A stretch of DNA of 57,468 bases from the NCBI GenBank assembly GCA_012521675.1, contig JAAYLU010000066.1, positions 1 to 57,468 on the forward strand, given 5' to 3'. The translations under genes were made by a program, and so were the position numbers. The DNA comes from Synergistaceae bacterium. GTDB lineage: Bacteria; Synergistota; Synergistia; Synergistales; Aminobacteriaceae. The notes under the pieces were generated by a model. It was not told the DNA's origin, did not search any database, and was given only the letters and a program-made list of their open reading frames with translations. Positions 270-16,109 of this stretch are shown here, one piece after another (position 1 is the first letter of the stretch; the number at the start of each line of letters is the position of its first letter).

Positions 270-1256
270 ATGAAGAAGATTTTTTTCACGAGCATGGCTC
301 TGCTTGCTCTGCTTGCCAGCCCTCTCTTCGCCGTGGACATCGATGGCAGCAGTGACTCGCCCTTGCTACGGAGGTTCGAAGGGTCCTTCATCGTTCAGCA
401 CTCGGCCCAGGAGTTCGACGAAACTGTAGTTCCGCTTGGGGAGACTGTCCGAAAGGACGACAACTATGTCTTCACTGATTATCAAAGGGTCGAGGGCAGG
501 ACGACACGAATAATGTATATCACCCCTCCCGGGACCAGCTCCCTCGCGGTGTTCAGAAACTACGAGGAGGAGCTGAAAGAGAGGGGGTACACTATTCTCT
601 TCAAAGGAGCGAGGGAAGAGCTCGGCCCCCACGACTCCTTCGCCGAGCTGCTCTACGGAAGGGACAGGCATTACCCCGTCCCCGGTCAAGAGTCGACAAA
701 GAAGCAACGCTTTCTCTCCGCGCGCCTAGGCAGGGACGAGGGCGACGTCTACGTGACAGTCTGTTCGTTCGAGAACCACTTCTGGGACATCGCCGGGACG
801 AAGATGGAAAAGGGCAGGACCTACTGCAGGGTCGACGTGGTGGAGACAAAGCCGATGCAGGTCAAAATGGTCGTGGTCAAGGCGGAGGAGATCGCACGCG
901 AGCTGGAGTCGTCCGGAAGGATTGCGCTCTACGGAATCTTCTTCGACACGGACAAGACGGATATAAAGCCCGAATCCAAGCCTGCTCTTGAGGAAATGGC
1001 CAAGATGCTGAAGAGCTCCCCCGGGCTTCGGGTGCTGATAGTGGGGCACACGGATAGCACGGGGGACATAGAGTACAACATGGGCCTCTCCAAGAGAAGG
1101 GCGGAGTCGGTGGTCAAATACCTCAAGGAGCACTACGGCTTCGCTGGCTCCAGGCTCATCCCCGCCGGTGTCGGCATGTTGGCGCCCGTCGCGACGAACA
1201 GGACCGAGGAGGGGCGGGCTAAAAACCGCAGGGTCGAGCTGGTGGAGCTGCAGTGA
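270..1256 (+). CDS. OmpA-family outer-membrane/peptidoglycan-binding protein with DUF4892-like N-terminal region
   Basis: A secreted 328-residue protein. The start at 270 follows GGGAGG at 257-262 and opens a signal peptide (MKKIFFTSMALLALLASPLF, cleavage near residue 20). Residues about 30-140 (RRFEGSFIVQHS, FDETVVPLG, YQRVEGRTTRIMY) resemble the DUF4892 region found in front of OmpA domains. Residues about 219-328 are a clear OmpA C-terminal domain: FFDTDKTDIKPES, VGHTDSTGD, YNMGLSKRRAESV and NRRVELV, including the Asp and Arg that normally bind the diaminopimelate of peptidoglycan. It probably anchors the outer membrane to the wall; what the N-terminal part does is unknown. Its stop overlaps the GTG start of the next frame (GTGA), so the two are probably translationally coupled. 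Confidence 0.88.
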   Translation: MKKIFFTSMALLALLASPLFAVDIDGSSDSPLLRRFEGSFIVQHSAQEFDETVVPLGETVRKDDNYVFTDYQRVEGRTTRIMYITPPGTSSLAVFRNYEEELKERGYTILFKGAREELGPHDSFAELLYGRDRHYPVPGQESTKKQRFLSARLGRDEGDVYVTVCSFENHFWDIAGTKMEKGRTYCRVDVVETKPMQVKMVVVKAEEIARELESSGRIALYGIFFDTDKTDIKPESKPALEEMAKMLKSSPGLRVLIVGHTDSTGDIEYNMGLSKRRAESVVKYLKEHYGFAGSRLIPAGVGMLAPVATNRTEEGRAKNRRVELVELQ

Positions 1257-1660
1257 CAGAGGGCGTGGGTGGACGGATTTTGAGGAAACTATATTACGCC
1301 TTGCTGCTGTCCCTTATGATGATGCCTGTTGCTCATGCCGCGTATGCGACAGCTGTCGAAGGGGGTCCTTCCCTGGCAATGGGGCCGGGCGTCGCCGAGA
1401 AGCTCGAGGCTCTGGGCGCTGAGTTCACACTTGACTGGGGACTTTACCAGGACACCTGAGCCGAGGAGGCCTCCGCTCTCGTCGAGAGCGGAAAGCCAAG
1501 CTCTGCCGACGGCTATCTTCTTCTTCTCGATGACAGCGGACGTATCAGAATCCATGTCTCGAGAAACATGACTTTCATCGACGACACAGTGCTGATAGAG
1601 CACACGGTTCACCGGGGGCGCGACATCTTCATCTGCCGGTCGGTCGAGCCTTACGAGTAA
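1253..1660 (+). CDS. Small secreted protein with in-frame UGA at codon 69: candidate selenoprotein or nonsense-interrupted gene
   Basis: The frame starts at GTG 1253 (or TTG 1280), overlapping the OmpA-like stop. It encodes a signal peptide (RKLYYALLLSLMMMPVAHA) and about 40 mature residues, then meets TGA at 1457-1459. The same frame stays open for 66 more codons to TAA at 1658-1660, and that part reads like normal protein (GYLLLLDDSGRIRIHVSRN, RGRDIFICRSVEP). The full product would be 135 residues. I do not recognise the family. Two readings fit: a recent Trp-to-stop type mutation, or UGA read as selenocysteine using the hairpin at 1472-1492. The UGA context (QDT-UGA-AEEA) is not a CxxU redox motif, which argues for caution. 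Confidence 0.5.
1472..1492 (+). promoter_or_regulatory. SECIS-like hairpin 12 bases after the in-frame UGA
   Basis: Arms 1472-1480 (TCCGCTCTC) and 1484-1492 (GAGAGCGGA) pair perfectly over 9 bp around the loop GTC. The loop begins 22 bases after the UGA and its first base is G. As I recall the bacterial SECIS consensus, it wants a stem closing a small loop with a G in the first two positions, roughly 16-37 bases after UGA. There is no T-run afterwards, so it is not a terminator. GC-rich coding DNA can form such a hairpin by chance. Confidence 0.35.
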
Positions 1661-3106: not shown

Positions 3107-4216
3107 ATGCATTTCAAGCTGGCCGCTGTCGTACTTGCCGCCGGATACTCGAGCCGCATGGGCTTTTTCAAGCCTCTCTCCAGGCTGAAGGGAGTCACGG
3201 CCCTTCAGAGGGTGATCATGTCGCTGTTTGAAGCGGGCGTAGAGGATGTACTGGTCGTAACGGGGCACAGGGGCGAGGACGTGGGGCGACTCGCCGCGAG
3301 CTGCGGCGCCGAGACAGTGCACAACCCCCTATTCGACCGGGGCATGTTCACCTCGGTGCAGGCGGGCGTCGCGGCCATGCCGGAGGATGCCGGGGCATTC
3401 TTCCTCCTGCCGGCGGACATTCCGGCGGTGCGTCCGGCCACTCTTATAAGCATGGCGAACATTGCTTCGCCCGACAGGGTCGTTCACCCGGCCTTCAGGG
3501 GGAGACGCGGTCATCCCCCCTTGATCGGCACCTCGCTGATCCCCTTGATTCTGAATCACACCGGGGAGGGAGGGCTTCGCGCCGTCTGGGAGTCGCGGGC
3601 CATCACGAACGTGGAGCTGCCCGTGTCCGACCAGGGAGTGCTGATGGACATGGACACAAGGAAGGATTTCGAGCTGATCCTCGTTCGCCTGGAGACTAAT
3701 TCAACAACCCCTTCGAGAGACGAAAGACTCGCCCTCTGGGAGATGGCGGAGACACCGGAACGGGTCCGTCGTCACTGCGATAGGGTGGCGTCCACCTGTC
3801 TCGCGATCGGCATGGCATTAAAGCGAAGAGGAGTCGAGGTGGACCTGCCTCTTCTGAGGGGAGCGGCTCTCTTTCACGATGTCTGCCGACACCGGGAGGA
3901 CCATGTTCGCAGGGGAGAGGAGTTTCTGAGGACCAACGGTTTTCCGAAAATGGCGGCCGTGGCGGCGTGTCACAAGGACCTGCCATCACGGGCTCCTGTA
4001 GAGGCCGCTATCCTTCACCTATCGGACAAGCTCGTCAAGGACACGGGGATAGTCACTCTCGCCGAAAGGAAGAAGCAGATGCGAGCGGCATATGGCACCG
4101 ACGCGGACGCTTGGGCTTCGATCGGCAGACGCTACGCCGCCGCAAGAAGGACGGCCCGGATGGTGGAAAAAAAGACTGGGTGTCCCCTCTCTGATATTCT
4201 TGATCATTTAACCTGA
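3107..4216 (+). CDS. MocA/YgfJ-like molybdopterin nucleotidyltransferase fused to an HD phosphohydrolase domain
   Basis: A 369-residue two-domain protein. Residues 1-200 form a nucleotidyltransferase: VVLAAGYSSRMGFFKPL is the nucleotide-binding signature, LLPADIP the metal site, and GRRGHPPLIG the segment typical of MocA/YgfJ, which adds CMP to molybdopterin for xanthine-dehydrogenase-type enzymes. Residues about 215-369 form an HD domain (RHCDRVASTCLAIG, ALFHDVCRHRED with the HD pair near 257, ACHKD, HLSDKLVKD). The position directly before the hydroxylase genes supports cofactor maturation. What the HD domain hydrolyses is unknown; a nucleotide or cofactor precursor is the natural guess. 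No clear Shine-Dalgarno precedes the ATG, so a shorter start cannot be excluded. Confidence 0.82.
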   Translation: MHFKLAAVVLAAGYSSRMGFFKPLSRLKGVTALQRVIMSLFEAGVEDVLVVTGHRGEDVGRLAASCGAETVHNPLFDRGMFTSVQAGVAAMPEDAGAFFLLPADIPAVRPATLISMANIASPDRVVHPAFRGRRGHPPLIGTSLIPLILNHTGEGGLRAVWESRAITNVELPVSDQGVLMDMDTRKDFELILVRLETNSTTPSRDERLALWEMAETPERVRRHCDRVASTCLAIGMALKRRGVEVDLPLLRGAALFHDVCRHREDHVRRGEEFLRTNGFPKMAAVAACHKDLPSRAPVEAAILHLSDKLVKDTGIVTLAERKKQMRAAYGTDADAWASIGRRYAAARRTARMVEKKTGCPLSDILDHLT

Positions 4217-4265
4217 AACCCCTCTGGACAGTTTACATTGAATGTTATAAGGTTAACCGAGGAAT

Positions 4266-4284
4266 TTCGTTCCCATGGAACGAA
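4266..4284. promoter_or_regulatory. Perfect palindrome before the hydroxylase operon: candidate operator
   Basis: TTCGTTCC (4266-4273), CAT, GGAACGAA (4277-4284): 8-bp arms with a 3-bp spacer, about 37 bases before the first hydroxylase start. A poor promoter candidate lies just upstream (TGGACA 4225-4230, TATAAG 4246-4251, spacer only 15). The size and symmetry fit a dimeric repressor site; IclR-family sites look broadly like this, but no regulator is encoded nearby. Confidence 0.4.
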
Positions 4285-4320
4285 TTACGAATGGGATCAT
4301 ACCGAAAAAGGGGGAGAAAA

Positions 4321-5148
4321 ATGAGTACGGTTCAATGGTTTTTTCCGGATACTTTAGAGGAGGCCCTCGCGTATCTCGGAAGAGAGGGTGTGGCGCCTCA
4401 CGGCGGAGGGACCAATCTGGTCAAAAGCGGCATTTCCTCCCTCAAAGGAGTGGTTGATCTCTCAAGGCTGGAGCTCGACTTCATGAAGATCGACAAGGGA
4501 GTTCTCGAAGCGGGCGCGACCCTGACCTTTTCCGGGGTCGCGGATAATCTGGCCAACCTCTATCCAGATTGCCTCCTGGGAAAGGCGCTTGGAACATCCG
4601 CCTCGACCCCGCTGAGAAACAGGATCACACTAGGCGGCTCTGCGGCTCTATTCCCCCTGTGGTCGGACCTGATAGGCCCCATGTCGGTTCTTCAAGGGAG
4701 CGTTTGCGTAGCCGGGGAGAACGAGGGCAAATACGCCTTCGACACGTGGCTCGCAAACGGCGCCCTCCTGCAGGGCAGCCTGATCACATCGCTTCTCTTT
4801 CCGGACCCGGTCGACTGGCTCTCGTACTTCTACAGGGAGATCAGGGTCGGGTTCGATTACCCCGCTTTCACCGTATCCATCCTGGCCAGGAAGAACGGCG
4901 ACAGGGTGGACGAGGTGCGCATAGCTGTCTCAGGCGGACTTGATAGGGTGCGGCGTCTCTCCGAGCTCGAGGAGAAACTCTCAGGCGCGGATCTGTCGGA
5001 GCTGGACAGACTCGACGTCAGGAGGATGGCGACCGTAGAGTTCGGCAAGAAGCCGTCGGGTTCGCCGCAATACCTGTCCGATATGGCCGCGCTGCAGGTC
5101 GAACGGGGATTGAAGAGGATACTCGCCGAGGAGGTGAAGTCCAGATGA
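4321..5148 (+). CDS. ygfM: Molybdenum hydroxylase FAD-binding subunit (YgfM-like)
   Basis: A 275-residue flavin subunit of a xanthine-dehydrogenase-like enzyme. The start at 4321 follows GGGGGAG. HGGGTNLVKSG (about residues 23-33) is the FAD pyrophosphate-binding loop, and TPLRNRITLGGS (about 95-107) is the second flavin-binding motif of the CoxM/XdhB family. It passes electrons from the 2Fe-2S subunit to NAD or another acceptor. It overlaps the next gene by ATGA at 5145-5148, so the FAD, 2Fe-2S and Mo subunits are coupled. At 275 residues it has the compact form typical of YgfM. Confidence 0.85.
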   Translation: MSTVQWFFPDTLEEALAYLGREGVAPHGGGTNLVKSGISSLKGVVDLSRLELDFMKIDKGVLEAGATLTFSGVADNLANLYPDCLLGKALGTSASTPLRNRITLGGSAALFPLWSDLIGPMSVLQGSVCVAGENEGKYAFDTWLANGALLQGSLITSLLFPDPVDWLSYFYREIRVGFDYPAFTVSILARKNGDRVDEVRIAVSGGLDRVRRLSELEEKLSGADLSELDRLDVRRMATVEFGKKPSGSPQYLSDMAALQVERGLKRILAEEVKSR

Positions 5149-5612
5149 ACGGATCTTTCGTTGTGAACGGCCGTAGGGTCGAATGGTCCTTCGAGCCGCA
5201 GGACACCCTGCTGGACGTGTTGCGTGCGAACGGGCATCCGGAGGTGCACAGGGGATGTGACGAGGGGTCCTGCGGGGCCTGCTCGGTGCTGCTCGACGGC
5301 AAGCTTGTGAACTCCTGCCAGGTGTTCGCCGCGTCGGCGATCGACAAGGAGGTTCTGACCGTCGCGGGCATAGGGACGATTCACGAGCCTCACCCGCTGC
5401 AGGCGGCCTTCGTCGAGACTACCGCCGTACAGTGCGGGTTCTGCACCCCTGGCATGATCCTGGCGTCCCTCGCGCTTCTCCGCAAGAACCCAAACCCGTC
5501 GGAGGAGGACATCCGCTCCGCGCTGGACGGGAACTATTGCAGGTGCACGGGGTACGTCAAGATCATCGAGGCGGTCAAACTCGCTTCAAGGAGGATGAGC
5601 GCTCATGACTGA
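5145..5612 (+). CDS. Molybdenum hydroxylase 2Fe-2S subunit
   Basis: A 155-residue iron-sulfur subunit. The plant-type 2Fe-2S site is GCDEGSCGACSVLLDGKLVNSC (C-x4-C-x2-C then Cys), and the second site is QCGFCTPGM plus YCRCTGY. Both clusters of the xanthine dehydrogenase family are therefore intact. It relays electrons from the molybdenum centre (next gene) to the flavin subunit (previous gene). It overlaps the Mo subunit by 8 bases. Confidence 0.92.
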   Translation: MNGSFVVNGRRVEWSFEPQDTLLDVLRANGHPEVHRGCDEGSCGACSVLLDGKLVNSCQVFAASAIDKEVLTVAGIGTIHEPHPLQAAFVETTAVQCGFCTPGMILASLALLRKNPNPSEEDIRSALDGNYCRCTGYVKIIEAVKLASRRMSAHD

Positions 5613-7926
5613 TCTGAACATAGTTGGAAAATCCGTAGAGAAGGTCGATTCACTATCACTCGCTTGCGGCACGGCTCGTTACGCCTCGGACTGCGAGCTT
5701 CGCGACCCCCTCTTCCTGGCCTTCGCCCTATCCGCCGTGCCCCATGCCGAGATTCTCTCCATAGATGATTCGCAGGCTCGGGCCGTGGACGGGGTAGTGG
5801 ACGTCTTCCACTCCTTCAACACCGAGTCGCCCCTCTTCTCGACGGCCGGGCAGGGACATCCGGAACCCTCCCCCTACGACACTCGCCTCTTCAACAAGAG
5901 GGTGAGGTACAACGGTGAGATAGTCGCGGCGGTGCTGGCGGAAAGCCTCAGGGCGGCCCGAGCGGGAGCGAGGGCGATGAAGCTGGATTACTCGCCTCTT
6001 CCGACTCTGTTCGACCCGGAGAGGTCGATGGACGCCGATTCGCCGAAGCTCCACGATGGAGCGGATGCCTACGCCCCACTCCCCGTGCCCTACAGGCCGG
6101 AGGAGAACGTGGCGGGCGAGGTGCTCTTCTCCTACGGCGATCTTGAAAAAGGCTTCACCGAGGCCGACCTGACAGTGGAGGAGACCTTCAGGACGCAGCA
6201 GGCATCTCACTGTGCGCTGGAGTTGCACAACGCATCCGCATACTTCGATGAAAAGGGAAGGCTGGTGATAGTCGTATCCACCCAGGTACCCTTCCACTCC
6301 AGGCGAATTGTATCCAATGCGACGGGGATTCCTCTTCATATGATAAGGGTGATCAAGCCTCGGATCGGCGGTGGCTTCGGAGGCAAGCAGGAGGTCCTGG
6401 TAGAGCTCTACACGGCTCTCGCGGCCTGGAAGCACAAGAGGAGCGTCAGGGCGGAGATGACCCGCCCGCAGGTGTTCACCTCGGCCCGCACCCGCCACCC
6501 GATGAGGGTGAGGATAAAGACCGGTGTGAAAAAGGACGGGACCATCACGTCGATGGACATGAACGACCTGATGGACAGCGGCGCGTACGGCGCCCACGCC
6601 CTCACGGTGCTCTCCAACGCGGCCTCCAAGGTACTGCCCCTGTTCAACAAGATCGAGAACCTGAATTTCACCGGGAGGTCCGTCTACACGAACCTGCCTG
6701 TCGGGGGCGCGTACCGAGGATACGGTGCGACCCAGGGATATTTTCCCTTCAACCAGCACATCGACGAGCTGGCCCGCAGAATAGATATGGACTTCCTCGA
6801 CTTCGCCAAGATGCATCACATAAGAGAGGGAGAGACCTCGGCGGTCTTCGAGGCGATAGGCGAGGGAACCGAGGGAGTGAAGCAGGTAGTTAGGTCGTGC
6901 AAGCTGAGCGAGTGCATAGACATAGGCGCCAAGGAGATCAAGTGGCACGAGCTCCGCGGCAAGAGGATCAAGGACGGCCCGCTGGTGAAGGGAATCGGGG
7001 CGGCGGTTGCCATGCAGGCCTCGGGGATCCCCCAGGTCGACATGGCCAGCGCATCCATGAAGATGAACGACGACGGCTCGTTCAACCTGATGGTCGGGGC
7101 TACGGACATAGGCACCGGGTCCGACACGATACTCTCCCAGATCGCGGCCGAGGCTCTGAACGTCCCGCTCGAGATGATCATAGTCCTGTCGTCCGATACG
7201 GACCTGACCCCCTTCGACGTCGGAGCGTACGCCTCGTCCACGACATACGTGTCGGGCCGTGCGGTTCTCTCGTGCGCGGAGAAGATCCGCGACCAGATCC
7301 TCTCGGTCGCGTCGGCGATGACGGGCGCGCCCATCGAGCAGCTCTCGCTGGGGGAGAGCAAGGTCGTGAACAGGACGACCGACGAGGAGACCTCCTTCTC
7401 GCAGATCGCCTGCTTCGCCCTCTACACCAAGGACCAGTTCCAGATACAGGCGTCCGCCTCCTTCACCGGAATCGAGTCGCCCCCTCCGTTCATGGCACAG
7501 TTCGCCGAGGTGGACGTGGACACGGAGACGGGCAGGGTGAAGGTGGTCAAGTTCGTCTCGGTGGGTGACTGCGGACAGGCGGTGAACCCGAAGCTCGCCG
7601 AGGGGCAGGTGGAGGGAGCGACGATCAACGGCATCAGCTTCGCCCTCGCCGAGCAGTACATCTTTAACCAGAAGGGCAAGATGACCAACGACTCCTTCTG
7701 GGACTACAAGATATACGGCACTCTCGACATGCCAGAGATGGTGACGGTGCTGGTGGACTCGGACGAGCCCACCGGACCCTACGGCGCGAAGTCCATATCG
7801 GAGATAGGCATCAACGGCCCCGCGCCTGCGATAGCCAACGCGATCTACGACGCTATAGGGGTGCGCCTGTACGACATGCCCTTCACCCCGGAGAAGGTGT
7901 TGAAGGCGATCCGCTCGCGTGCCTAG
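5605..7926 (+). CDS. Molybdenum hydroxylase large subunit (XdhD/purine hydroxylase-like)
   Basis: A 773-residue molybdopterin-binding subunit that hydroxylates a heterocyclic or aldehyde carbon with water as oxygen source. It has an Ald_Xan_dh a/b hammerhead domain (about 10-125), RIGGGFGGKQE (about 253-263), GGAYRGYGATQ (near 368-378) and a C-terminal segment GPYGAKSISEIGING with the expected catalytic Glu near 733. The cofactor loop reads ATDIGTGSDT rather than the common GQG, as I recall for XdhD-type enzymes placed in selenium-dependent clusters. Its upstream partners are separate FAD and 2Fe-2S subunits; a terminator follows. The exact substrate (purine, nicotinate or other) cannot be read from sequence. 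Confidence 0.88.
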   Translation: MTDLNIVGKSVEKVDSLSLACGTARYASDCELRDPLFLAFALSAVPHAEILSIDDSQARAVDGVVDVFHSFNTESPLFSTAGQGHPEPSPYDTRLFNKRVRYNGEIVAAVLAESLRAARAGARAMKLDYSPLPTLFDPERSMDADSPKLHDGADAYAPLPVPYRPEENVAGEVLFSYGDLEKGFTEADLTVEETFRTQQASHCALELHNASAYFDEKGRLVIVVSTQVPFHSRRIVSNATGIPLHMIRVIKPRIGGGFGGKQEVLVELYTALAAWKHKRSVRAEMTRPQVFTSARTRHPMRVRIKTGVKKDGTITSMDMNDLMDSGAYGAHALTVLSNAASKVLPLFNKIENLNFTGRSVYTNLPVGGAYRGYGATQGYFPFNQHIDELARRIDMDFLDFAKMHHIREGETSAVFEAIGEGTEGVKQVVRSCKLSECIDIGAKEIKWHELRGKRIKDGPLVKGIGAAVAMQASGIPQVDMASASMKMNDDGSFNLMVGATDIGTGSDTILSQIAAEALNVPLEMIIVLSSDTDLTPFDVGAYASSTTYVSGRAVLSCAEKIRDQILSVASAMTGAPIEQLSLGESKVVNRTTDEETSFSQIACFALYTKDQFQIQASASFTGIESPPPFMAQFAEVDVDTETGRVKVVKFVSVGDCGQAVNPKLAEGQVEGATINGISFALAEQYIFNQKGKMTNDSFWDYKIYGTLDMPEMVTVLVDSDEPTGPYGAKSISEIGINGPAPAIANAIYDAIGVRLYDMPFTPEKVLKAIRSRA

Positions 7927-7951
7927 AGGCAGAGTGGAAGGACATCGATGG

Positions 7952-7981
7952 CCGCCGGAGACGAACGTCTCCGGCGGTTTT
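7952..7981 (+). terminator. Intrinsic terminator after the first hydroxylase
   Basis: CCGCCGGAGACG (7952-7963) pairs with CGTCTCCGGCGG (7966-7977) in a 12-bp, very GC-rich stem followed by TTTT. The T-run is short, so partial readthrough into ygfK is likely. Confidence 0.75.
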
Positions 7982-8011
7982 GAAGGAAAATGAGGAAACG
8001 GAGGTGCGGAG

Positions 8012-11000
8012 ATGAGCGACATCATGAGGATGATTCCCTTCGGGAGCCTGATGGACTGGATGCTCGCGGAACACGAGCGGGAGGGGTCCATCCTTGGAAT
8101 TAGGAAGGAGAAGTTCTATAAAAACGACTCCGGCAGGAGCATTGTCGTCTGCGGGGAGGAGATAGCGTCGCCGATAGGACCCGCCGCCGGGCCGAACTCG
8201 CAGCTGGCGCAGAACATCATAGCCGCCTACCTCGCGGGGGCACGCTTCATAGAGCTCAAGACGGTCCAGATCATGGACGGGGAGGAGCTCCGAAAAGCCG
8301 TCGCAAAGCCGTGCATCAACGCCTGCGACGAGGGGTACAACGTGGAGTGGTCAACAGAGCTGACCGTGCAGGAGGCCTTCGGGGAGTATGTCAAGGCCTG
8401 GTTCGCGATGCAGGTCCTCGCCGTTGAGCTGGGCATAAGCCCCAAGCGAGACTTCGCCTTCAACATGAGCGTCGGATACGACCTGAAGGGCATTCAGTCC
8501 CCGAAGATCGACTCGTTCATAGAGGGGTTGAAGGACGCCTCGTCCACGGACGCATGGAGGGAGTGCAAGGGTTGGCTGTCGGAGAACCTCGACAGATTCA
8601 AACGATTCAAGGCCGCCGAACTCGATGCGATAGAGAGCCGCCTGTGCGACTCGATCACCCTGTCCACCCTGCATGGCTGCCCGCCGGACGAGATCGAGCG
8701 CATCTCTCGCTACCTTATGAACGAGAAGGGGCTCAACGTGTTCGTCAAGTGCAACCCGACCCTGCTGGGGTATGAGACGGCGCGAGACCTGCTGGACAGG
8801 ACGGGCTACGGATACATGGACTTCACCGACCACCACTTCAAGCACGACCTCCAGTACGGTGACGGGGTCGAGATGCTGAAGCGGCTGCAGGAGTACGCCG
8901 GGGAGCTGGGGCGCGAGTTCGGGGTGAAGCTGACCAACACCTTCCCCGTCAACATCAAGAACGACGAGCTGCCGGGCGAGGAGATGTACATGTCCGGGCG
9001 CTCGCTCTTTCCACTCACCGTCACCCTGGCTACCAGGCTTAGCAGGGAGTTCGACGGATCTTTGCAGATATCCTACTCCGGCGGCGCGGATTTCTTCAAT
9101 ATAGAGTCGCTGATCAGGACCGGTATCCAGCCGATAAGCATGGCGACGACAATACTTAAACCCGGCGGCTACGAGCGGCTGAAGCAGATAGCCGACAGGG
9201 TGGAGCCGCTGCTGGACGGGCCGTTCAGGGGAGTCAACGTGGATGCGCTTGACGAACTGGCGAAGAGCGCCCTCGAGAACCCGTTCCACAAGAAGGAGGC
9301 GCGCCCGGTCGGCTCTAGGAAGACCGACTCGCGTCTGCCCCTCTTCGACTGCGCCAAGGCCCCCTGCCAGGACGGAGGCTGCCCGATCAACCAGCAGGTG
9401 CCTGTCTACCTCAGGCTGGTCGACGAGGGAAGATACGACGAGGCCTTCGAGACAATAGCGATAGACAACAGCTCCCCGGCGGTAACGGGGACGATCTGCG
9501 ACCACCAGTGCCAGCACGTCTGCGTCAGGCTGGACTACGAGCACCCGCTCGAGATACGCGAGATGAAGAAGGTTGCGGTGCTGAAAGCCCAGGACTCCTA
9601 CACTTCGAAGATGAAGCCGGCGGAGCTTAAGACCAAGAAGAGGGCTGCGATCATCGGAGCGGGCCCGACTGGAGTCGGCACTGCGATATTCCTCCGGAGG
9701 AACGGGATGGAGGCGCACGTATTCGAGAAGCGAGCGGAGCCCTACGGCATCGTCAAGTACGCCATCCCCGACTTCCGCATCGGCTCGGAGATGATCTCGC
9801 GCGACTACGACATGGCCGTCAAGGCGGGGGTCGAGTTCGAGTTCGGCGAAGAGAGGTCGGCCGACGAGCTCAGGAAGGCTTACGACTATGTCGTGATAGC
9901 CACGGGCGCGTGGGGCCCCGGAGTCTGCCCGGTGAAGGAGGGTGGCGACAAGGTGCTCGACGCTCTCGCCTTCCTGCAGGAGCACAAGGAGAGAGGCGGA
10001 AAGGTCGACCTGGGCGAGACGGTCGCGATCATCGGAGGCGGAGACGTCGCGATGGACTGTGCCAGGGCGGCCCGCAGGACGCCGGGAGTGAAGCGCGCGA
10101 TCATAGTCTACAGGCGGACCAGGGCATTCATGCCGGCCGAGCCGGAGGAGATAAGGCTGACCCTCGAGGACGGGGTAGAACTGATTGAGCTGCTCGCCCC
10201 CGTGAACTACGACGGCTCGGAGCTTGTATGCGAGAGGATGAGGCTCGGAGAGAAGGACGAATCCGGTCGCAGAGGAGTGGTCGGCATAGGTGAGATGGTC
10301 TCGGTCAAGGCCGACTCGGTGATAGGAGCGACAGGCGCCACGGTGGACCAGTCGCCCTTCAAGGCCGCGGGCATCGCCCTCGACCCGAAGGGCAGACCTG
10401 TGCTGAACGAGGAGAACGAGAGCTCCGTCGCCAATATCTACGTCGCGGGCGACTGCAAGGCGGGCCCCGCCACGGTGGTGAAGGGGATCGCCGACGCCAA
10501 GACGGTGGCGAAGAGCATCCTGGGCAAGGAGGGGATCTCCCCGGACTTCGCAGTGACTGAGCTTCTGAGGGACCTGCCCTCGATCTACAGAAAAAAGGGA
10601 GTGCTGAAGGAGGCCGTCAAGGAACACACGGACGGCTCTCGCTGCCTCGACTGCGGCGAGATCTGCGAGATCTGCTGCGACGTCTGTCCCAACAGGGCCA
10701 ACGTGCTCATAGTGGTGGACGGCAAGCACCAGATACTACACCTGGACGGAATGTGCAACGAGTGTGGAAACTGCGGGATTTTCTGTCCGCACACGGGCGA
10801 CCCGTACAGGGACAAGGTTACCCTCTTTTGGACGGAGGAGGACTTCGAAGACAGCGAAAACACAGGATTCTACAGGGTCGAGGGCGACCTCTACAAAGTG
10901 CGCAGGGAGGACGGATCGACCCTCTCCTGGCGGCGAGGCGATCCTGGAGTCTCTGGCGAGATGACGGGGATGCTGAACGAGATCCTCGACCGCTATCCCT

Positions 11001-11020
11001 ATTACGTGTTGAACCTTTAG
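8012..11020 (+). CDS. ygfK: YgfK-like Fe-S/FAD oxidoreductase (putative selenate reductase subunit)
   Basis: A 1002-residue multidomain redox protein. GGAGGTGCGG precedes the ATG. Residues about 1-420 resemble a dihydroorotate-dehydrogenase-like TIM barrel (GPAAGPNSQLAQNI, TLHGCPPDEIE, ISYSGGADFFNI). Residues about 448-850 are GltD-like: CAKAPCQDGGCPIN binds Fe-S, IIGAGPTGVGTAIF is the FAD Rossmann motif and IIGGGDVAMDCARA the NAD(P) motif. The C-terminus has Cys-rich CLDCGEICEICCDVCP and CNECGNCGIFCPH clusters, suggesting two 4Fe-4S sites. The family is a constant companion of SsnA and XdhD-type hydroxylases. Its role is probably electron transfer, or reduction tied to the hydroxylase; the name selenate reductase is historical and its activity unproven here. 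Confidence 0.9.
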   Translation: MSDIMRMIPFGSLMDWMLAEHEREGSILGIRKEKFYKNDSGRSIVVCGEEIASPIGPAAGPNSQLAQNIIAAYLAGARFIELKTVQIMDGEELRKAVAKPCINACDEGYNVEWSTELTVQEAFGEYVKAWFAMQVLAVELGISPKRDFAFNMSVGYDLKGIQSPKIDSFIEGLKDASSTDAWRECKGWLSENLDRFKRFKAAELDAIESRLCDSITLSTLHGCPPDEIERISRYLMNEKGLNVFVKCNPTLLGYETARDLLDRTGYGYMDFTDHHFKHDLQYGDGVEMLKRLQEYAGELGREFGVKLTNTFPVNIKNDELPGEEMYMSGRSLFPLTVTLATRLSREFDGSLQISYSGGADFFNIESLIRTGIQPISMATTILKPGGYERLKQIADRVEPLLDGPFRGVNVDALDELAKSALENPFHKKEARPVGSRKTDSRLPLFDCAKAPCQDGGCPINQQVPVYLRLVDEGRYDEAFETIAIDNSSPAVTGTICDHQCQHVCVRLDYEHPLEIREMKKVAVLKAQDSYTSKMKPAELKTKKRAAIIGAGPTGVGTAIFLRRNGMEAHVFEKRAEPYGIVKYAIPDFRIGSEMISRDYDMAVKAGVEFEFGEERSADELRKAYDYVVIATGAWGPGVCPVKEGGDKVLDALAFLQEHKERGGKVDLGETVAIIGGGDVAMDCARAARRTPGVKRAIIVYRRTRAFMPAEPEEIRLTLEDGVELIELLAPVNYDGSELVCERMRLGEKDESGRRGVVGIGEMVSVKADSVIGATGATVDQSPFKAAGIALDPKGRPVLNEENESSVANIYVAGDCKAGPATVVKGIADAKTVAKSILGKEGISPDFAVTELLRDLPSIYRKKGVLKEAVKEHTDGSRCLDCGEICEICCDVCPNRANVLIVVDGKHQILHLDGMCNECGNCGIFCPHTGDPYRDKVTLFWTEEDFEDSENTGFYRVEGDLYKVRREDGSTLSWRRGDPGVSGEMTGMLNEILDRYPYYVLNL

Positions 11021-11032
11021 GAGGTGTGCATC

Positions 11033-12361
11033 ATGCTTCTGATAGGAAACGGAAAGGTTATCACTCGGGACGACGAGAACAGGGTCATCGATAACGGGGC
11101 CGTCCTCGTGGACGGCGCCCATATCAAGGCAGTCGGAGAGACGGATGAGCTGAGGAAGGCCAACCCGGGCGCCGAGTTCAAGGACGCCGGGGGCAGGCTG
11201 GTGATGCCGGGCCTCATCAACGTCCACATGCACTACTACAGCACCTTCGCCAGGGGTATGGCACTCGACAGCCCACCCGCCAAGAACTTCGTCGACGTGC
11301 TGGAGGGGCTCTGGTGGAGGCTGGACAAGTGCCTGACGCTGGAGGACGTCTACTACAGCGTGATGGGACCGGGAATCGACCAGGTCAAGTGCGGAGTGAC
11401 ATCCGTCATAGACCACCACGCCAGTCCGTTCGCGGTGCGGGGAAGCCTTGCGAAGATCGCGGAGGCCTCAGCCGAGCTGGGACTGAGGAGCAACCTGTGC
11501 TACGAGGTCTCCGACCGGGACGGAGAGCAGAGCAGGGTGGACGGGATCACTGAGAACATAGAGTTCATCAAGTACTGCGCCGAGAAGAAGGACGACATGA
11601 TCAAGGGGCTGTTCGGCTTCCACGCTTCGATGACAGTGTCCGACAAGACCCTGGAGGAGAGCGCAAAGCTCATGGAGGGGCTGGATTCGGGCTACCACGT
11701 GCACATCGCCGAAGGGATCGAGGACCTGGAGGACAGCAGGGGCAAGTACGGCATGGGGGTCGTGGAGCGCTGGCACAAGCACGGGATGTTGCATCCTAAG
11801 AGCTTGGGCATACACTGCATCCACATCTCGGAGAAGGAGATGGATCTGCTCAAGGAGTCCGGAGTCGCCGTGGTGCACAACCCGGAATCCAACATGGGCA
11901 ACGCCGTCGGCCTGTCACCGGTGCTCAAGATGATGGAGAAGGGGGTCATGGTCGGACTGGGGACTGACGGCTACACGGCCGACATGTTCGAGTCGTACAA
12001 GGTCGCAAACTGCCTGCACAAGCACGGCGCGGGCATTCCGAGCGCCGCGTGGGTCGAGCCGCCGACGATGTTCTTCGAGAACAACAGGACGATAATGAAC
12101 CGCCACATCGACGGAGAGGTGGGCGTGCTAAAACCGGGCGCATACGCGGACATCGTAATAGTCGACTACAACCCTCCCACTCCGTTGAACGGAGGGAACG
12201 TCAACGGACACCTGCTGTTCGGCGTCTGCGGAAGGCACGTGGACACGACGATAGTAAACGGCAAGGTGCTGATGGACGAGAGGAAGCTCCTCCACATCGA
12301 CGAGGAGAGGATTATGGCCGAGAGCAGGGCCCTGGCCCGGAAGCTCTGGCAGAGGATCTAA
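11033..12361 (+). CDS. ssnA: SsnA-like amidohydrolase (aminohydrolase/chlorohydrolase family)
   Basis: A 442-residue metal-dependent hydrolase of the guanine-deaminase/ATZ superfamily. The ATG at 11033 was chosen because AGGAGGT (11019-11025) is at good spacing; GTG 11024 lies inside that site. Metal ligands: NVHMHYYS (HxH near 66), HVHIAEG (His near 222), LGIHCIHIS, and GLGTDGYTADM with the catalytic Asp. It probably deaminates a purine or related ring made or consumed by the adjacent hydroxylases. It follows ygfK by 12 bases, and this ygfK-ssnA pairing is the recognised hallmark of the cluster. Confidence 0.9.
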   Translation: MLLIGNGKVITRDDENRVIDNGAVLVDGAHIKAVGETDELRKANPGAEFKDAGGRLVMPGLINVHMHYYSTFARGMALDSPPAKNFVDVLEGLWWRLDKCLTLEDVYYSVMGPGIDQVKCGVTSVIDHHASPFAVRGSLAKIAEASAELGLRSNLCYEVSDRDGEQSRVDGITENIEFIKYCAEKKDDMIKGLFGFHASMTVSDKTLEESAKLMEGLDSGYHVHIAEGIEDLEDSRGKYGMGVVERWHKHGMLHPKSLGIHCIHISEKEMDLLKESGVAVVHNPESNMGNAVGLSPVLKMMEKGVMVGLGTDGYTADMFESYKVANCLHKHGAGIPSAAWVEPPTMFFENNRTIMNRHIDGEVGVLKPGAYADIVIVDYNPPTPLNGGNVNGHLLFGVCGRHVDTTIVNGKVLMDERKLLHIDEERIMAESRALARKLWQRI

Positions 12362-12370
12362 GCAACGACC

Positions 12371-12400
12371 GACGCCAGGGGCCCGACGGCCCCCGGCGTC
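12371..12400 (+). terminator. GC-rich hairpin after ssnA, weak terminator or attenuator
   Basis: GACGCCAGGGGCC (12371-12383) pairs with GGCCCCCGGCGTC (12388-12400), with one A-C mismatch and a 4-base loop. The following sequence CCTTTC is only weakly T-rich, so termination is probably partial and the second hydroxylase could be co-transcribed. Confidence 0.5.
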
Positions 12401-12444
12401 CCTTTCACCGTTCATTCTTTCTGTTTTTAAGGAGGCACATGCCA

Positions 12445-14736
12445 ATGATCGAGAGGCTCAACGTGGTCGGCACCTGTGTTCCAAGACACGATGCCCTTGC
12501 CAAAGTAACCGGTGGTGCCCGTTACGTGGCCGATCTTCCCTGTGAAGGGGCGTGGGTGGGGGGTGCCCTCTGGAGCGAGACCCCGCGCGCGAAGCTTAAG
12601 GGCGTAGTCCGGCGGAGAGGCTTCGACTGGTCGAGAGTGACCGTCGTCACAGCCGCCGACCTGCCCGGCCCGAACGAAGTGCACATGGTGAAGGACGACT
12701 TTCCGGTGCTCGCGGACAGGGAGGTCGCCTACATCGGTCAGGCCATAGCCCTTGTCGCGGCGCCGGACGAAAAGACCCTGAAGGAGGCGCTTGCGTCACT
12801 GGAGCCGGAGTTGGAGGAACTCCCCCCCGTGCTGACGGTGGACGAGTCTCTCTCGCGCAAGGCCGTCATCTGGGGGGAGGACAATATCCAGGCCGAATAC
12901 CTGGTGGAGCACGGCGATATCGAGGCAGCGTTCGCTGAATCGGACATGATCGTGGAGGAGACCTACAGCACGCACCACCAGGAACACCTATATCTTGAGA
13001 CCAACGGAATGCTGGCCAGGCCGCGGGAGGGCGGGGGGGTGGAGGTCGAGGGTTCGCTGCAGTGCCCCTACTATGTCGCACGCGCCCTGGCTCATTCTCT
13101 CTCCCTCCCGCTGGACATGATCGTTATGAGGCAGACGGAGACTGGAGGGGCGTTCGGTGGCAAGGAGGACTATCCGTCTGTGATAGCGGTCCAAACGGCC
13201 CTGATGGCGCTGAAAAGCGGCAAGCCGGTCCGATTCGTCCTCGAGCGAGGGGAGGACATAGAGGTCACCACCAAGAGGCATCCGTCGATTATCCGCCACC
13301 GGACTGGGGTCGCAAAGGACGGGACGATCCTGGCCGCCGAAATGGACATAATCTTCGATGGTGGCGCCTTCTCGACGATGAGCCCGGTGGTGCTCTCAAG
13401 GGGGGTCCTGCACGCGTGGAGCGTTTACAAACTGCCGAACGCAAGGATAAGGGGCAGGGCCCTGGCCACGAACACAGCCCCCAACGGCGCGTTCAGGGGC
13501 TTCGGAGCACCGCAGACCATCTTCGCGATGGAGCGCCAGGTGGACCTGATCGCCCGCCGCCTTGGCATCTCACCGGTCGAGGTCAGGAGAAAAAACCTGG
13601 TCAAGGCCGGCGACACCCTGCCCTGCGGCCAAGTGCTGCGCTCCGCGCATGCCGAGCTCGTTCTGGACAGGGCGCTGGAGCTCTCGAGATATGAAAAGAA
13701 GCACGGCAAAAAGGAAAACGACGGGAGGGTCCTGCGCGGCGTGGGGCTCTCCCTGTTCATGCACGGAGGCGGCTTCACCGGCGCGGGTGAGGAGAACATA
13801 GCCGGAAAGGCCGCGGTCGAGGTCGCGGACGACGGACTGGTCGACATATTGGTGAGCAGCACGGAGATGGGCCAGGGCGCTGCAACGGTGCTGCCGCAGA
13901 TCGCCGCGGAGGTCCTCGCCCTTCCCGTGGAGAGGGTGCGCCACCCGAACCCGGACACTTCGCGAGTTCCGGACAGCGGCCCGACCGTGGCGTCAAGAAC
14001 GACGATGATGGTGGGGAAGATACTGCTTGACGCTGCGACGGACATGCGCGACAAACTCTCGGCCTTCGTCGGAGCAAACTCCGGAGTGAATCCAGAGTAC
14101 ATCGAGTGGAGTGGAGGCAGGCTGCGCTCCGGGGGCAGGGATCTCGGCTCGTTCGATGAACTCGCGGCTCGGTACAGGTTGGCGCACGGCAAGCCTCTCA
14201 GGGGAGAGGCCGCATACGATCCGCCTCCCGAGTGCCAGTGGAACGAGGAGGAGTACAGGGGCGACGCCTACAAGGACTACGCCTGGGCCTGCGACGTCGT
14301 CGAGGTCGAGATCGATGCGGACACGCTCGAACTCAGGGTGCCGCGCATGACGTCGGTCGTCGAGATCGGAAGGGCGATCCACCCGATGCTGGCGGAGGGA
14401 CAGGTGGCGGGAGGCTCGCTGCAGGCCCTGGGATGGGGGGCAATGGAGGACGTCAAGATGCAGAAAGGCCGCTATCGCAACACCAGCCTCGCCAACTACA
14501 TAATTCCGACCGCCGTGGACGCCCCGGACTTTGACATAGAGATAGCGGAGGCGCCATCGCCCTATGGACCGTGGGGGGCAAAGGGTCTCGGCGAGCTTCC
14601 GATGGACGGAGGCGCACCGGCTCTCGCGGCGGCCGTGGATGATGCACTCGGCGTGTTCGCGTCGGAGCTTCCCCTTACGAGCGACCGTCTGCACGAACTG
14701 TTGAGGCGAAAAGAGCGGGGAGGGGATCGTAGATGA
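12445..14736 (+). CDS. Second molybdenum hydroxylase large subunit
   Basis: A 763-residue xanthine-dehydrogenase-family molybdopterin subunit. The ATG at 12445 was preferred over 12439 because AAGGAGG at 12429-12435 is then 9 bases away instead of 3. Motifs: ETGGAFGGKEDYPS, PNGAFRGFGAPQ, SSTEMGQGAATVLPQ (with the usual GQG, unlike the first hydroxylase) and GPWGAKGLGELPMD with the catalytic Glu near 717. It overlaps its partner by ATGA at 14733-14736. It is clearly a paralogue, not a copy, of the enzyme at 5605, so the locus has two hydroxylases probably acting on different substrates or at different ring positions. Confidence 0.88.
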   Translation: MIERLNVVGTCVPRHDALAKVTGGARYVADLPCEGAWVGGALWSETPRAKLKGVVRRRGFDWSRVTVVTAADLPGPNEVHMVKDDFPVLADREVAYIGQAIALVAAPDEKTLKEALASLEPELEELPPVLTVDESLSRKAVIWGEDNIQAEYLVEHGDIEAAFAESDMIVEETYSTHHQEHLYLETNGMLARPREGGGVEVEGSLQCPYYVARALAHSLSLPLDMIVMRQTETGGAFGGKEDYPSVIAVQTALMALKSGKPVRFVLERGEDIEVTTKRHPSIIRHRTGVAKDGTILAAEMDIIFDGGAFSTMSPVVLSRGVLHAWSVYKLPNARIRGRALATNTAPNGAFRGFGAPQTIFAMERQVDLIARRLGISPVEVRRKNLVKAGDTLPCGQVLRSAHAELVLDRALELSRYEKKHGKKENDGRVLRGVGLSLFMHGGGFTGAGEENIAGKAAVEVADDGLVDILVSSTEMGQGAATVLPQIAAEVLALPVERVRHPNPDTSRVPDSGPTVASRTTMMVGKILLDAATDMRDKLSAFVGANSGVNPEYIEWSGGRLRSGGRDLGSFDELAARYRLAHGKPLRGEAAYDPPPECQWNEEEYRGDAYKDYAWACDVVEVEIDADTLELRVPRMTSVVEIGRAIHPMLAEGQVAGGSLQALGWGAMEDVKMQKGRYRNTSLANYIIPTAVDAPDFDIEIAEAPSPYGPWGAKGLGELPMDGGAPALAAAVDDALGVFASELPLTSDRLHELLRRKERGGDRR

Positions 14737-16109
14737 AGTTCAAACTTATCGTAAACGGCGTGACCCGCGAGATCGACGCCCCTCCTACGAGGCGCTTGTT
14801 AGACATACTAAGGGAGGACCTCGGCCTGACCGGGGCCAAGGAGGGATGCGGGGAGGGTGGTTGCGGCGCGTGCGCCGTGCTGTTGGACGGGCGCCTGGTC
14901 AACTCGTGCATGGTGCCGGCACTGCAGCTTCCAGGCAGGAGCGTGGAGACGGTCGAATCTCTGGCGTTGGACGGAGAGCCCGACGTGCTTCAGCAGGCCT
15001 TCATTGACTCGGGAGCGGTTCAGTGCGGCTTCTGCACTCCCGGGATGCTCATGGCCGCCAGGGCGCTGCTTGCGTGCAACCCCCGGCCCTCCAGGGACGA
15101 TATAAGAACGGCCATTTCCGGGAACCTCTGCCGCTGCACCGGTTACGAGTCCATAGTGGACGCGGTCGAGAAAGCTGCGGCCGGGGGCTACTCACCGAGC
15201 CTTCTCACGGGGACGGGCAATCACGAGTTCTCACTCGCCCCGGAGGAGAGGGGGAAGGTGTTTCTGCCCCGGGCACTTGACGAGGCGCTATCGATCCTGT
15301 CCGAGCACCCTGGCGGTGTCGTTCTCGTAGCGGGCGGGACAGACCTTATCGTCGAGATGGAGAAGGGCGGCCGTTCCGCTCCGGAGATGATGATGGACCT
15401 GGGCGGCATCGACGAGCTTCAGGAGATCCGCGTCTCAGGCGACTGGCTCGAGATCGGCGCTGGGGCGACGTTCACGGATATCGCAACGGACGAGAGGGCA
15501 CTTGAAATCGCCCCCATGCTCGCGAGCTGCGCCGCGCAGATGGGTTCACCCGCCGTTCAGAACAGGGCGACCATAGGAGGCAACCTCGCGACCGCCTCGG
15601 CCGCGGGCGACTCGCCTCCCGTCCTGATGGCGCTCGACGCCATAATCGTGCTCGCGAGCAAGGCCGGCCTCCGCGAGGTGACGGCCGTCGAATTCTTCTC
15701 CAAGTACAGAAAGACGGAACTCCGGGACGACGAGTTGATCAAGTCGGTGCGCATCCCGCTGGCTGCGAGGGATCACGTGCAGATGTTCCGCAAGGTGGGG
15801 CCGAGGCGAGCAATGGTCATCTCGCGCATCACCCTTGCCTGCTCTGCGGAGGTCCGCGACGGAAAGACTCTCTCCTGTCGCCTGTACACGGGCAGCATGT
15901 CACCTGTTCCGCTGCTGCTGGAGAGGGCGAGCGAATTGGTCGTCGGAAAGATCCTGACGGTCGAACTGGCGGAGGAGGCCGGGAGACTGGCCGAAGAGGC
16001 GGTTTCGCCGCGCACGTCTCCCGAGTATCGCAAGGAGGCCACCGGCAAACTGGTGGCTCGCTTCTTCAAGGACATCCTGGAGGGCAAGGCAGGAGGTACT
16101 CTCGGATAA
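14733..16109 (+). CDS. Fused 2Fe-2S / FAD subunit of the second molybdenum hydroxylase
   Basis: A 458-residue fusion. Residues 1-150 are the two-cluster 2Fe-2S module ([34 protein letters not shown]). Residues about 178-458 are the FAD module ([13 protein letters not shown] as pyrophosphate loop, [18 protein letters not shown] as second motif, then a CoxM-type C-terminal domain). It does the work of two separate genes in the first hydroxylase (4321-5612). Electrons would pass from the Mo subunit through both clusters to FAD within one chain. It is the last gene of the locus; a strong promoter for the cold-shock gene begins about 30 bases downstream. Confidence 0.92.

Follow-up and report, generated by a model that had tools for sequence, protein, structure and literature searches.

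A conserved in-frame UGA in Synergistota points to a small exported selenoprotein with an IscA-like fold

The locus and its reading frame

The window (the whole stretch of DNA analysed, 57,468 nucleotides from a draft Synergistaceae genome, G000) starts with tRNA genes; next come a gene encoding DUF4892 and OmpA domains and a short frame interrupted by one UGA codon. The features considered here are these:

270 to 1256, + strand: upstream gene for an exported protein with DUF4892 and OmpA domains (PF16234, 48 bits; PF00691, 79 bits)
1253 to 1660, + strand: putative exported selenoprotein gene, starting at GTG 1253 or TTG 1280, read through a UGA and ending at the TAA stop 1658-1660
1280 to 1342, + strand: predicted signal peptide region (LRKLYYALLLSLMMMPVAHAA), from the sequence pattern, with relatives alike at the N-terminus
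1457 to 1459, + strand: UGA codon, predicted to be decoded as selenocysteine (Sec); 60 distinct homologous loci carry UGA at the aligned position and 7 others carry Cys
1472 to 1492, + strand: predicted bacterial SECIS hairpin with a 9-bp stem and a GUC loop 21 nt after the UGA (synonymous shuffles, covariation, bSECIS limits)

The frame encodes 135 residues, the UGA included, with 66 codons from the UGA to the TAA. Its GTG start overlaps the stop of the OmpA gene (GTGA at 1253-1256), and no terminator-like site was seen between the OmpA gene and the frame. Translation could also start at the TTG at 1280 (MRKLYYALLLSLMMMPVAHA), which fits the N-termini of the relatives better than the GTG does. 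These N-termini likewise carry K or R, a hydrophobic core and AxA, and the sequence pattern of the window copy suggests that its signal peptide is probably cleaved after AHA. The coordinates given in the initial annotation for the frame, the UGA and the hairpin were all correct on re-checking.

Gene neighbourhood and a second copy

In the relatives, AddAB-type genes lie on one side of the gene and those for IorA, a HAD protein and DUF255/YyaL-type proteins on the other (names read from the sequences). The genome of the window has a second copy (L026, on contig C65) that keeps this conserved neighbourhood, without IorA; the window copy, next to the OmpA gene, is a paralogue displaced from it. 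In the tree, the window copy lies nearer to sequences from other genera than to L026 (support 83-92, not starred), and it is possible, judging from this placement, that it derives from an older duplication or from transfer. The coupling to an OmpA-type gene proposed earlier is not conserved, as both the relatives and L026 lie elsewhere, and the link is a local accident.

The site is UGA or Cys across the family

A single-sequence scan of the genome contigs with the window protein found no relative; the relatives were reached by alignment-based searches and not by the window protein on its own. Of 83 genomes searched from the same family, 17 had matches, the strong ones all with an in-frame TGA and a few with an extra stop at one end of the match. 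Matches to IorA in this search (E about 1e-3) were rejected as chance, covering a short stretch of a different protein with no stop. All close relatives had one in-frame TGA at the site, in a single column of the motif W-G-x-Y-x-N-T-U-G-E-x-x-S-A-L-V-x-S-G. A 14-row profile gave matches in 68 of 188 Synergistota genomes, with TGA in nearly all.

The loci extracted from these searches comprised 60 distinct sequences with UGA at the site, seven with Cys and four with neither; for several sites the register was shifted by a few codons relative to the profile column, and the five exported Cys forms come from a reading of the alignment. The Cys members are uninterrupted frames with no stop. No Trp was found at the UGA column among the relatives, and in relatives of full length whose motif is intact, Cys was the sole sense replacement. 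An alignment of 66 rows, which leaves out the four rows without Sec or Cys and one near-duplicate, has only two invariant columns, the U/C column and one Phe. The four rows excluded from this count (L136, L137, L139 and L140, from genomes G116, G117, G119 and G120) are cytosolic-type proteins in which Sec and Cys have both disappeared from the site; the rest of the domain persists, as does the Cys-rich tail in L136, L137 and L139.

In the tree, a starred clade unites L162, the UGA member of G073, with five Cys members, among them those of G074 and G075; these three genomes belong to the same genus, so L162 groups with two congeneric Cys members. Across the family, then, the interchange at this site is between UGA and Cys, not Trp. 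Long branches leave the finer placement in the tree unsure. The Sec, Cys or lost state changes at least four times in it, and the exported or cytosolic state once.

Two kinds of neighbouring copies were also seen. In one genome, two adjoining cytosolic paralogues (L127, G113:C1:2136700-2137600) carry one UGA and one Cys (TGT) at the same site. Tandem exported UGA copies occur at L141 (G121:C7) and L113 (G122:C27), with one copy of each pair having a shortened pre-Sec loop (GRxGUGxPLxALV).

The initial annotation had named a plain nonsense mutation as the main rival to Sec and had looked to homologues to separate the two; with TGA aligned to UGA or Cys and never to Trp, they support Sec. A nonsense mutation or assembly error, leaving an ordinary gene that is now a pseudogene, would fit the status of the window copy as a displaced second copy and the odd residues beside its UGA: the context is U-A-E-E-A, against a family consensus of U-G-E-E-P, and with this departure the window copy might be drifting. 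Against it, 60 independent loci share the UGA and come from many different genomes and assemblies, the only sense codons that replace it in intact full-length relatives are those for Cys, and the codons 3' of the UGA differ between close pairs mostly at third positions. The hairpin described below, kept and covarying, also speaks against a pseudogene, and we regard this explanation, on the comparative record, as already refuted at the level of the family and as highly improbable overall.

A covarying SECIS hairpin follows the UGA

In the window, a stem of nine perfect pairs begins 12 nt after the UGA, with the 5' arm at 1472-1480 (TCCGCTCTC), the loop at 1481-1483 (GTC) and the 3' arm at 1484-1492 (GAGAGCGGA). 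The minimum free energy of the RNA 1457-1510 is -25.5 kcal/mol, a z of -2.2 against dinucleotide shuffles that is modest by itself, and that of the 27-nt stem-loop is -15.6 kcal/mol. A 2026 review (PMC13188914) gives four limits for bacterial SECIS elements, namely a loop of 3-9 nt starting with G and then G or U, a stem of 4-16 bp, a position 16-37 nt after the UGA and an energy of at most -7.5. The window hairpin lies inside all four (GUC, 9 bp, 21 nt, -15.6 kcal/mol).

Much stronger signals came from the 60 UGA sites together, compared with shuffles in which the protein was fixed and synonymous codons were redrawn. The summed stem run reached 292 paired positions against 69.7 +/- 12.2 in the shuffles, and the summed energy was -663 against -350 +/- 21 kcal/mol; the nine-pair register used here was that of the window hairpin, from which some sites depart, L119 and L162 among them. 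The hairpin stands at an equal distance from the UGA at nearly every site, and the loop starts with GU at 57 of the 60, with the spacing from the UGA kept. For 43 of these sequences we counted 38 two-sided changes, compared with 11.0 +/- 2.6 after shuffling and at most 16 in slid-register controls; 93.6% of the cells were paired, a percentage that leans high because the 43 are mostly well-fitting sites. The exchanges in the stem (GC/AU/GU, CG/UA and CG/GC) entail little change in the protein. This pattern across the alignment indicates that the hairpin is under selection, and the earlier proposal of a SECIS-like element is borne out by a stem far above the synonymous-shuffle null, its covariation and its fit to the bSECIS limits. 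Because the hairpin sits within the SALVESG motif, conservation of that motif in the protein may largely be an RNA constraint, which is a caution against taking such motifs for active sites.

Selenium machinery of the genome

The genome of the window carries selA and selB side by side (G000:C24), and its SelD (L066, G000:C25:13865-14797) has an in-frame TGA in SSGUAAK, the usual UxxK site. Its Sec makes SelD a classical selenoprotein, so the genome makes at least one. The gene for tRNA-Sec (selC) was not found in the draft genome, the RF01852 matches checked there being ordinary Ser, Leu and Tyr tRNAs; it is present in 11 of 12 relatives. The gene that precedes selC in G017 matches contig C33 of the draft up to base 5002 of 5004, in an orientation that places selC past the contig end. 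As the usual neighbour of selC is cut by the end of this contig, an assembly gap is the simplest account and the likely one. Of the sel genes for which the initial annotation had called, selA, selB and selD are thus present, and selC was not found in the draft.

The YgfK/SsnA locus reported earlier in the window was also recovered, with 1372 bits for YgfK (TIGR03315) and 640 bits for SsnA (TIGR03314). Together with a DVU_1551-type NTP transferase and XDH subunits, these genes form a selenium-dependent molybdenum hydroxylase cluster at 3107-16109.

At the level of sequence, the UGA could also be a true stop followed by a conserved second small frame, or be read as Trp or another common amino acid. 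We consider this barely credible: the Cys homologues are single uninterrupted frames, UGA terminates normal genes here (the upstream OmpA gene ends in TGA), SelA, SelB and a SelD with Sec of its own are encoded in the genome, and the hairpin falls within the published bSECIS limits. The Sec reading put forward in the initial annotation agrees with the UGA/Cys column, the covarying SECIS and selA, selB and selD, and on this comparative evidence the UGA is almost certainly decoded as selenocysteine.

The protein belongs to an exported branch related to NF041239

The nearest named family of the exported branch is NF041239, the "CC/Se motif family (seleno)protein" of NCBIfam. It matched 54 of the 66 alignment members at E <= 1 (best 9.5e-13). 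Cytosolic Synergistota members scored 33-45 bits (up to 45.2) against its cut-off of 40; exported members scored singly reached 29.6 bits at best, under the cut-off, and the window protein gave no match. An hhalign comparison of the exported with the cytosolic branch gave an E of 1.6e-20 with the Sec columns aligned, indicating that the two branches are homologous, with Sec/Cys in register. These comparisons place the window protein in an exported, usually Sec-only branch related to NF041239. The "possible new small selenoprotein" of the initial annotation therefore stands as a selenoprotein, but not as an isolated new one.

No Pfam family, PF01521 included, matched the window protein, and at the sequence level the exported members showed no match to the IscA family (hhalign probability 2.5%). 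In the 66-row alignment, PF01521 matched five members at E <= 1 (best 2.4e-5); the two seen individually, L153 and L128, are both cytosolic and lie below its cut-off.

Predicted fold and cysteine pattern

An AlphaFold2 model of an exported member (pLDDT 85, pTM 0.72) had SufA and IscA as its best PDB matches in Foldseek, with probability up to 1.00, TM about 0.57 and a weak E of 0.04, and its top seven matches were all IscA-type. SufA and IscA were also the best matches of a cytosolic model (pLDDT 81), again with a weak E (0.002). From these models, the mature domain of about 105 residues very probably has a HesB/IscA-like fold. Searching the PDB by sequence gave nothing significant, with IscA at E about 1, and circumsporozoite matches were rejected as chance. 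A fold search of BFVD added nothing new: its matches were weak and viral, and those at the top bore the names of core-domain or Fe-S assembly proteins.

In a HMMER profile alignment to E. coli IscA (1s98), at E about 1, Sec falls on the first cluster cysteine; the alignment is weak, and the fold of the predicted models agrees with it, so that this placement is only a lead. The three cluster ligands of IscA, C-x(n)-CxC, were not found, as the exported members lack the CxC at the C-terminus. They commonly have a Cys 57-59 residues beyond Sec, but L012, L014, L016 and L021 do not, and the mature domains of these four contain no Cys. Cytosolic members keep Cys-rich tails.

Proposed function

We assign a probability of about 0.93 to the main reading, a small exported selenoprotein in which UGA 1457-1459 encodes Sec; within it, the Sec step ranks higher than this, the IscA-type fold somewhat lower and the exposed-selenol function well below even odds. 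SelB and tRNA-Sec would decode the UGA, steered by the hairpin, and the N-terminal signal peptide predicted from the sequence would release the product into the periplasm, where it is probably located. Sec is proposed to act alone because most exported members lack an obligatory partner cysteine, several having none in the mature domain, so that Sec is the one fixed residue with redox activity. As an exposed selenol, it would most likely take part in redox reactions or soft-metal chemistry in the cell envelope.

Alternatively, the selenoprotein could be a Sec-bearing A-type carrier that handles Fe-S clusters or iron in the envelope. The modelled IscA/SufA fold with Sec at the first IscA cluster cysteine, the five PF01521 matches in the wider family and the Cys-rich tails of cytosolic members are in keeping with such a role. 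The exported members, however, lack the C-terminal Cys pair of IscA, the mature domain of some is free of Cys, and the known A-type carriers are cytosolic, so we hold this role to be unlikely. Over the role of an ordinary Fe-S cluster carrier, we tentatively prefer exposed-selenol chemistry. As a whole, the exported single-Sec family may be a selenol catalyst in the periplasm of Synergistota, or a trap for soft metals or selenium, a proposal that we rate somewhat higher but still short of even odds.

If this is true, an A-type scaffold has moved out of the cytoplasm and been turned to a new Sec-based chemistry. With Sec the only selenol or thiol of the mature domain in at least four exported members, the family poses a clean question about an envelope selenol.

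Comparison with known systems

Synergistota are rich in selenoproteins (PMC5029168), and a report on Aminobacterium sp. MB27-C1 gives 13 known selenoproteins and none new (PMC12013277). The exported branch adds to the selenoproteome of this phylum and is hidden from normal gene calling by its UGA. NF041239 appears in two reviews as a hypothetical selenoprotein, predicted in Moorella thermoacetica (PMC9312934, PMC13188914), and no mention of an exported form was found in the literature searched. The exported branch shares with it homology over the whole domain and Sec/Cys at the identical column, but differs in its signal peptide, in having W-G-x-Y-x-x-x-U where that family has GxGU, and in the usual absence of a Cys-rich tail.

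The HesB-like selenoprotein (TIGR01911 / IscA_HesB_Se NF038090), listed among the experimentally verified selenoproteins in PMC9312934, is likewise a small protein with Sec and an IscA-type fold; its profile, however, gave only marginal matches, to two of the 66 members (best 0.042), and none to the window protein. IscA, SufA and ErpA (PF01521), the A-type Fe-S proteins, are the best fold matches, with Sec aligned to their first cluster cysteine, but the exported branch has Sec for that Cys, is exported, and resembles them in sequence at a level near noise. The cytosolic model also matched Allochromatium DsrR (2k4z), a divergent IscA-fold protein outside the classical carriers that is cytosolic and is not known to be a selenoprotein. 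Together, these likenesses would tie the IscA fold to the CC/Se motif family, which has lacked an explanation.
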